This document shows, piece by piece, positions 32,861 to 34,763 of a stretch of DNA of 64,000 nt. The stretch lies in assembly GCA_040755395.1 (NCBI GenBank), contig JBFMAX010000009.1, forward strand, positions 1 to 64,000. The letters run 5' to 3'. Each line of letters begins with the position of its first letter. Positions within the stretch are counted from its first letter, which is position 1. The DNA is from Nitrospirota bacterium (GTDB lineage: Bacteria; Nitrospirota; Nitrospiria; Nitrospirales; Nitrospiraceae). The notes below the pieces were generated by a model. That model did not search any database. It was not told the DNA's origin and saw only the letters and a list, made by a program, of their open reading frames with translations. A program made the translations under genes and the position numbers.

Positions 32861-32981
32861 AGAAGCAATAAGGGGTCTAAGAAGCAATAAGGGGTCTGAC
32901 CCCTTTGTTCTGTTCTGACCCCTTTGTTCTGTTCCACGTCTGAGAAATGGTTCCTGCGTCTGAGAAAGGGTTCCTGGAACC
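32861..32981. repeat. Three successive tandem doublets and GGGGTCTGACCCC palindrome
   Basis: A 19-base unit (AGAAGCAATAAGGGGTCT plus one base) occurs twice at 32861-32879 and 32880-32898. A second 19-base unit (TGACCCCTTTGTTCTGTTC) occurs twice at 32897-32915 and 32916-32934. A 20-base unit beginning CGTCTGAGAAA occurs twice at 32937-32956 and 32957-32976 with one mismatch. GGGGTCTGACCCC (32891-32903) joins the first two as a palindrome, and GGTTCCTGGAACC ends the set. There is no gene at 32633-33003. Such sequences recall the flanks of REP-associated tyrosine transposases, but no transposase is present. Confidence 0.8.
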
Positions 32982-33003
32982 TTTTTCTTCGCCAATCACC
33001 AGA

Positions 33004-33210
33004 TTAGACAGCGCTTTCCTCCTTTCCAATCTCTGGGACTGAAAGAGCGCCGCAGATTTGTCGGGCGAGCTTGTTGGGAATCTCGACATGCCTTGGAACG
33101 GCTTCAACCCAACCAGTCTTTGGATTGCACCAGAGCGAGTGGGAGCGACCTTCACGCTTGAGAAAGCAGCCATGTCTGCGAAGGTGACGCAGAAGATCAT
33201 TGCGCTTCAC
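33004..33210 (-). CDS. hicA: HicA-type mRNA interferase toxin
   Basis: 68 residues with the HicA double-stranded-RNA-binding-like fold: KRNDLLRHLRRHGCFLKREGRSHSLW with the catalytic His (GRSHSLW), then AVPRHVEIPNKLARQI. HicA cleaves mRNA and is held inactive by HicB. It overlaps the upstream antitoxin gene by four bases, the normal coupling. The length is typical of short HicA proteins. It sits at the 3' side of the pair, with the tandem-doublet repeats starting 23 bases after its stop. Confidence 0.85.
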   Translation of the reverse strand: MKRNDLLRHLRRHGCFLKREGRSHSLWCNPKTGWVEAVPRHVEIPNKLARQICGALSVPEIGKEESAV

Positions 33211-33422
33211 TTCACAACGACCTTTTCACAGATCGCCTCTGGCGGAATCCCGCGCAGGCCGTCCTCCCGCCTGTCTTGAAGGATAAGCGCAATGGCGTCG
33301 GAAAGACTCTCCAATGCTTCTTCCTTTGTCCGTCCCTGGCCGTTCGCTCCAGGAATCTCCGGACAGTAAGCGACAAACCAGCCCTCGTCCTGTTCAATGA
33401 CCGCTGTAAACTCGTTTGCCAT
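33207..33422 (-). CDS. hicB: HicB-type antitoxin
   Basis: 71 residues with the partly degraded RNase H-like HicB fold: FTAVIEQDEGWFVAYCPEIPGANGQGRTKEEALESL. There is no C-terminal DNA-binding domain, so autoregulation may require the toxin or may be absent. A good AAGGAGGTCG Shine-Dalgarno lies before ATG 33422. The order antitoxin-toxin with a four-base overlap is standard. The gene starts 48 bases after an attC-like site, consistent with a mobile cassette. Confidence 0.85.
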   Translation of the reverse strand: MANEFTAVIEQDEGWFVAYCPEIPGANGQGRTKEEALESLSDAIALILQDRREDGLRGIPPEAICEKVVVK

Positions 33423-33470: not shown

Positions 33471-33533
33471 GTCTAACGCTCAGGATAACCTACGGGCTGC
33501 GAGCGGCCCATCAGATTCATCCTGTTGTTAGAC
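33471..33533 (-). other. attC-like integron recombination site 2
   Basis: Read on the minus strand it starts GTCTAAC and ends GTTAGAC, the RYYYAAC/GTTRRRY pair of integron attC sites. Inside these, CAGGAT near the left end pairs with ATCCTG near the right end. The length is 63 bases. It begins five bases after the stop of the Mrr-like gene, the usual place for attC in a gene cassette. Confidence 0.65.
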
Positions 33534-33537
33534 TGCA

Positions 33538-34422
33538 TCACTCCTCCGGGATAAGAAAATACACGGGTCGAATCGGCAGCAATCGTCGTTGCACCTCCGG
33601 GATACGGTCGTAGTGCTCCACCCAGAGATCGAACAGTCGCTTTAGGTCAACGAGCATGACGCGTCGCTTCTCCTGCCGCCGAGCTTCCTCTTCCGCCTCG
33701 CGCGTAAACCCTCCCGTGGAGATAAAAAGGCCCACGTCCCCTTCACCCAGCAGAGCGAGCAGCGAGCGGACGCCGTCGATAGTGGTCTTGTCGGTTCGGC
33801 GCTTCACCTGAACCTTGATCCTCGGCCCCTGTATCCCGAGTGGGTCAGTGTGGGCGATGACGTCAATGCCCTTGTCCGGCCCCGGCGGGGAAACCCACGC
33901 TACGTGGTAGCCCATTGCCCGAAGAAGGCCCGCGACGAGTTCCTGGAAATCGTACGGGTTCATTTGTTCCAGGTGCTCCTCGATCTCTGTCCACGCTGCT
34001 TCTTCTGCTTCTTCGAGGGTCGTGGCTGCGTCCGGCGAGCCTTCGTCCACAAGAGCCTCGGGTTCCTGAGGTTGCTCGGCCGCCCACTTGCGGTACAGCC
34101 GTCCTGCTTCCCTCATGAAGTCCTCCGGGTCCGGAAACTGTTCGTATGCCCTGCGACCTGCATCGGTCAGCGTCCAGAGTCCCTTATTCTTCAGCAACCA
34201 TCCGGCCTTCACAGGACCAATCGTGGAGAACCTTACGATCTTCTCATAGCGGCGGACGTCTGGGCGGCGCGGGTAAGTGGTCTTCTCGAAATCTGTAGGC
34301 GGGACAATCTCCGCCAATTTCTCCAGTATGGATTTCGCTGGTACCCCCTCTGGGTGAGCCAAGAGCAGCTTGAACACACCCCGCACCAACTCTCCGCTTC
34401 GACGACGTGTAATTTCCGCCAC
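33538..34422 (-). CDS. Mrr-like restriction endonuclease
   Basis: 294 residues from the GTG at 34422 (Shine-Dalgarno AAAGAGAGGC). The N-terminal half has a winged-helix Mrr_N-like region (ELVRGVFKLLLAHPEGVPAKSIL; WLLKNKGLWTLTDAGRRAY). The C-terminal half has the Mrr catalytic fold: NPYDFQELVAGLLRAMGYHV, GPDKGIDVIAHTDPLG (catalytic Asp) and IKVQVKRR (Q-x-K), then GLFISTGGF. Mrr enzymes cut methylated or otherwise foreign DNA. It lies between two attC-like sites, so it fits a mobile defence cassette. An ATG at 34512 is in frame, but those codons lie within the attC1 region and are not Mrr-like. Confidence 0.85.
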   Translation of the reverse strand: MAEITRRRSGELVRGVFKLLLAHPEGVPAKSILEKLAEIVPPTDFEKTTYPRRPDVRRYEKIVRFSTIGPVKAGWLLKNKGLWTLTDAGRRAYEQFPDPEDFMREAGRLYRKWAAEQPQEPEALVDEGSPDAATTLEEAEEAAWTEIEEHLEQMNPYDFQELVAGLLRAMGYHVAWVSPPGPDKGIDVIAHTDPLGIQGPRIKVQVKRRTDKTTIDGVRSLLALLGEGDVGLFISTGGFTREAEEEARRQEKRRVMLVDLKRLFDLWVEHYDRIPEVQRRLLPIRPVYFLIPEE

Positions 34423-34454
34423 GTTCAGCCTCTCTTTCGTGTCACGTTCCCGCT

Positions 34455-34544
34455 GTCTAACGCCTCGGTGCTGAGCGACCGGCGCTGCCTCGATCGATTG
34501 ACTACGTAGCATTCATGCCGGGCCGCTCAAGCGGGTTGTTAGCC
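34455..34544 (-). other. attC-like integron recombination site 1
   Basis: On the minus strand it starts GGCTAACAA and ends GAGGCGTTAGAC. Internal GAGCG/CGCTC and CCGGC/GCCGG segments can pair with the slight asymmetry typical of attC. The length is 90 bases. Its 3' core (GTTAGAC followed by AG.GGG) matches that of site 2. The left core departs from RYYYAAC by one base. Confidence 0.6.
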
Positions 34545-34763
34545 AGGCCCGCTGGACTGCCCGACCTGCTCGATTACCTCAGCGATCCACTTTCGCTTCA
34601 CATTGCGCCTGGATTCCTTGGCTCGGAGGCTAACAATAAGGGGATCCCTTTGTTTTGTCTGAGACGTTGGGATATCCCCGTACCCGCATCCCTTCACACC
34701 GCAGCCTCTTCCTTAGCAGATCGAGCAGCCTATCCCGCTTCGGCCCGTACCAGCTTCGGAACG
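34545..34763 (-). pseudogene. Possible gene remnants upstream of attC site 1
   Basis: Two open minus-strand frames look protein-like but have no start. One ends at 34539 inside the attC site, with VKRKWIAEVIEQVGQ near its end. The other ends at the TAG at 34630-34632 and contains FRSWYGPKRDRLLDLLRKR. They overlap in different frames and may be one frameshifted cassette gene or 3' fragments of two. No family is recognised, and they could be chance. Confidence 0.25.

Follow-up and report, generated by a model that had tools for sequence, protein, structure and literature searches.

A probable integrase-less attC cluster holding one Mrr-type nuclease cassette in a Nitrospirota chromosome

The window analysed here (G000:C9:1-64000) is a 64,000-nucleotide stretch of a 4.11-Mb genome in 74 contigs. 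Along the minus strand the genes and sites run in the order Memo, 90-nt site, mrr, 63-nt site, hicB, hicA and then Uma2, and this one strand is common to both sites and the cassette genes:

36032-34764, minus strand: Memo gene, upstream of the 90-nt site
34455..34544, minus strand: predicted attC of 90 nt, R'' GGCTAAC, R' GTTAGAC (covariance model R1 23.8 bits, E 0.0026 in 64 kb; pattern match)
33477..34460, minus strand: predicted complete gene cassette of 984 nt, from the TT of one R' to the G of the next (sequence and the G/TT crossover rule, PMC12901181)
33538..34422, minus strand: Mrr-type restriction nuclease gene, 294 aa (Pfam Mrr_cat E 2e-24; PADLOC PDC-S02 E 2.4e-47, mREase_IV E 1.3e-12)
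33471..33533, minus strand: predicted attC of 63 nt, downstream of mrr (R1 33.5 bits, E 1.5e-5; R''/R' 7/7 complementary)
33207..33422, minus strand: HicB-like antitoxin gene, 71 aa (Pfam HicB_lk_antitox E 8e-4, under the curated cut-off)
33004..33210, minus strand: HicA toxin gene, 68 aa (Pfam HicA_toxin E 9e-7, above the cut-off)
33001..33007 (approximate), minus strand: possible R'' remnant of a hicBA cassette, GTCTAAT over the hicA stop codon (from the sequence; a weak candidate)
32632-32069, minus strand: Uma2 gene, further on, past hicA

The initial annotation had placed two attC-like sites in the same orientation around an Mrr-like nuclease gene, and this arrangement proved exact at 33471-33533 and 34455-34544 on the minus strand, the two sites lying 0.92 kb apart. 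It had also described site ends of the form RYYYAAC/GTTRRRY. These are present in full at the 63-nt site, where R'' (GTCTAAC) and R' (GTTAGAC) are complementary at 7/7 positions, but not at the 90-nt site, whose R'' pairs with R' at 6/7 positions and departs from RYYYAAC at its second base. A site shortly after a stop codon and ahead of hicBA does exist as proposed, but it is the 63-nt site, 4 bases past the mrr stop codon, whereas the 90-nt site precedes mrr. Palindromic repeats around AAAGGGGTCAGACCCC are found at window positions 32870-32995 and 34628-34680, and this 16-mer, with at most one mismatch allowed, has four genomic matches, of which two overlap.

The sites were scored with R1, a home-made covariance model standing in for IntegronFinder's attC model and derived from 16 aligned attC sites of resistance plasmids and same-family integrons, with both window sites excluded. 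One attC alignment (A1), which had long variable loops, was replaced by another (A2). In an unfiltered scan of the window, with E-values taken from a shortened calibration, the 63-nt and 90-nt sites were the top two matches, and the third reached 12.6 bits. The proposal had been staked on the two sites not both falling under an attC-model threshold, and with this home-made model they did not. By R1 covariance scoring both sites carry paired L''/L' segments with unpaired extra bases, which bears out the paired inner segments described earlier. The pattern CTAACAA-N(43-73)-GCGTTAG, shaped post hoc on both sites, matched twice in the window and in none of 100 shuffles; a genome-wide version, CTAAC...GCGTTRG, was dropped as too loose, with 11 matches against 66 in the reversed control. 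DNA folding is supportive for the 63-nt site (z about -2.7) and no better than shuffles for the 90-nt site (z -1.1 and +0.2), and a palindrome count with strict RYYYAAC ends (shuffle mean 0.01) found the 63-nt site alone and missed the other. At genome scale a score of 23.8 bits corresponds to E about 0.16, as read from another site scoring alike, and a fast genome search that scored 150 of 3646 candidates listed neither window site. Rfam at its gathering threshold matched nothing in the window. From their sequence, both sites are predicted to function as attC, with the bottom strand recombined by IntI.

Crossover takes place between the G and the TT of R' (PMC12901181), and the six bases that end an attC are therefore part of the next cassette. 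Delimited in this way, mrr is a single gene in attC orientation with edges at the G/TT of R', and it is the only complete cassette at the locus. In the 90-nt site, the TTAGAC of R' agrees at 6/6 positions with the R'' in the attC of the mrr cassette and at 5/6 with the R'' of its own site, as expected from insertion of the mrr cassette. The gene has a GTG start preceded by AGAGG; a GID...QVK motif is visible in the protein and its Mrr_cat match is over the cut-off. The product probably defends against foreign DNA. Is such a gene usually carried as a cassette? mrr is sporadic in the family (5/175 genomes), whereas the adjoining Memo is near-universal (154/175), and no convincing attC was found near relatives of this Mrr, whether at the 24 loci checked in other genomes or at the 4 within the family, so mrr is not usually a cassette.

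Beyond the 63-nt site, the R1 scan found no attC downstream of hicBA between 32640 and 33004, so that the status of this pair as a cassette is one that we infer. The GTCTAAT over the hicA stop codon fits at 6/7 bases the R'' expected from TTAGAC and might, by this resemblance, be the decayed R'' of a hicBA cassette; R1 scored no attC there. The cassette reading of the window's hicBA gains plausibility from contig C1, where another hicBA is flanked by two attC matches (44.5 and 23.2 bits). Restriction and toxin-antitoxin genes rank with the most frequent contents of cassettes (PMC9668308), in keeping with the earlier description of a defence nuclease and a toxin-antitoxin pair as typical cargo.

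No integrase had been seen in the window, and contig C9 is indeed without any TIGR02249 match. The search of the remaining genome suggested by the initial annotation gave no intI over the TIGR02249 cut-off in the whole assembly, and decayed fragments on contigs C8 and C4. At G000:C8:28390-28805 a pair of fragments corresponds to residues 1-65 and 236-314, in two frames and with the middle absent, the pieces showing 67% and 87% identity to a same-family IntI; at G000:C4:7719-7868 about the last 50 residues are kept. These fragments align far better to same-family IntI than to the genome's other recombinases and are accordingly read as intI remnants. Further attC matches occur on at least C10, C1 and C4, with weaker ones on C3 and C8, and include three near the C4 fragment (39.3, 33.4 and 18.7 bits) and a weak one near the C8 fragment (21.9 bits). 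Genes for a MazF-like toxin and an RHH protein, and for a DNA methylase, lie between the attC matches and the intI fragment on C4 (locus L066).

Integrons are common in the window's family: 18/175 genomes have intI over the cut-off, and at least 106 of 172 have attC matches when E is set at 0.001, a lower bound as few candidates were scored per genome. In most of the family integrons checked, intI stands where the near-universal Memo stands here, upstream of the first attC, and at L060 it is divergent, the usual arrangement. The attC sites of the chromosomal integrons L059, L061 and L064 were found by the same model, and the intI fragments of the window's genome are closest to their integrases; these integrons differ in having a long, intact-looking intI beside the attC array, which the window is without. 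MpsC and Memo are separated by about 750 bases in a relative (G054), against about 2.9 kb in the window, and the two sequences do not align. This interval in G054 (L099, about 750-1500) holds a different insert with a suspected toxin-antitoxin pair, judged by eye.

A CALIN is defined for working purposes by two or more attC sites with no integrase nearby (PMC9024848), and at this locus there are two clustered attC and no nearby integrase. As in the IntegronFinder class of that name, the sites share one orientation and a cassette gene lies between them; the window's example differs in having two sites, against a mean of almost six attC per published CALIN (PMC9024848). Two same-orientation attC around a complete cassette, on a contig with no integrase, support the CALIN reading first put forward. 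With a probability of about 0.88, the locus is a small chromosomal CALIN that holds one complete mrr cassette, an intact intI being absent from the assembly. The mrr cassette would consist of its own ribosome-binding site, the gene and the downstream attC, and would once have been inserted by an integron integrase that joined this attC, folded as a single strand, to a site nearby. A preceding cassette, its gene since lost, would account for the 90-nt attC, and hicBA probably begins the next cassette, the attC of which has decayed. Since a working integrase was not found in the genome, we propose that the cassettes no longer move. The predicted role of the nuclease is to cleave foreign DNA, which may be modified, and that of the toxin-antitoxin pair is to stabilise the stretch.

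A different history would have the cassettes inserted singly by IntI acting in trans, at non-integron attG-like sites, with no former integron here. The attC matches on several contigs, with intI fragments on two only, would suit such a history, as would Memo, near-universal and upstream of the first attC where family integrons mostly have intI, and insertion at attG sites is described in a passage of PMC12901181 that cites Loot et al. (2024). However, an array remnant is the simpler account of two adjacent attC in the same orientation, and an empty target site was not reconstructed; in-trans insertion is possible at this locus but rather unlikely. It is improbable that the lineage's cassettes were scattered by an integrase at non-integron sites and that mrr is, in addition, an ordinary chromosomal gene newly made into a cassette.

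That the 90-nt site scores lower and folds unremarkably would also agree with its being a chance inverted repeat, which would leave the 63-nt site as the sole true attC and mrr beside one orphan. Yet the 90-nt site ranks second window-wide, lies on the same strand less than 1 kb from the best match, is correctly placed upstream of mrr and has the R' expected for the mrr cassette, all of which makes a chance repeat very improbable. Hardly credible is the view that both sites have no tie to integrons and are common inverted repeats, for instance terminators or the ends of repeat elements: they are imperfect intergenic palindromes and a different palindromic repeat, AAAGGGGTCAGACCCC, is close by, but a model trained purely on integron attC ranks them first and second, and attC matches and intI fragments are present elsewhere in the genome.

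As a small CALIN, the locus is genuine but unexceptional, a relic of a gene-capture system already known. CALINs, those of Nitrospira included, are already published, as are cassettes with toxin-antitoxin or restriction genes; IntegronFinder 2.0 reported two CALINs in Candidatus Nitrospira inopinata (PMC9024848), of a probably related lineage, to which the present one is likened by description. What the locus adds is a defence-gene cassette in a lineage whose integrons seem under-reported, given two Nitrospira CALINs in that survey (PMC9024848) against attC matches in at least 106 of the 172 family genomes here. The attC-less relatives of Mrr could help ask how ordinary genes turn into cassettes.
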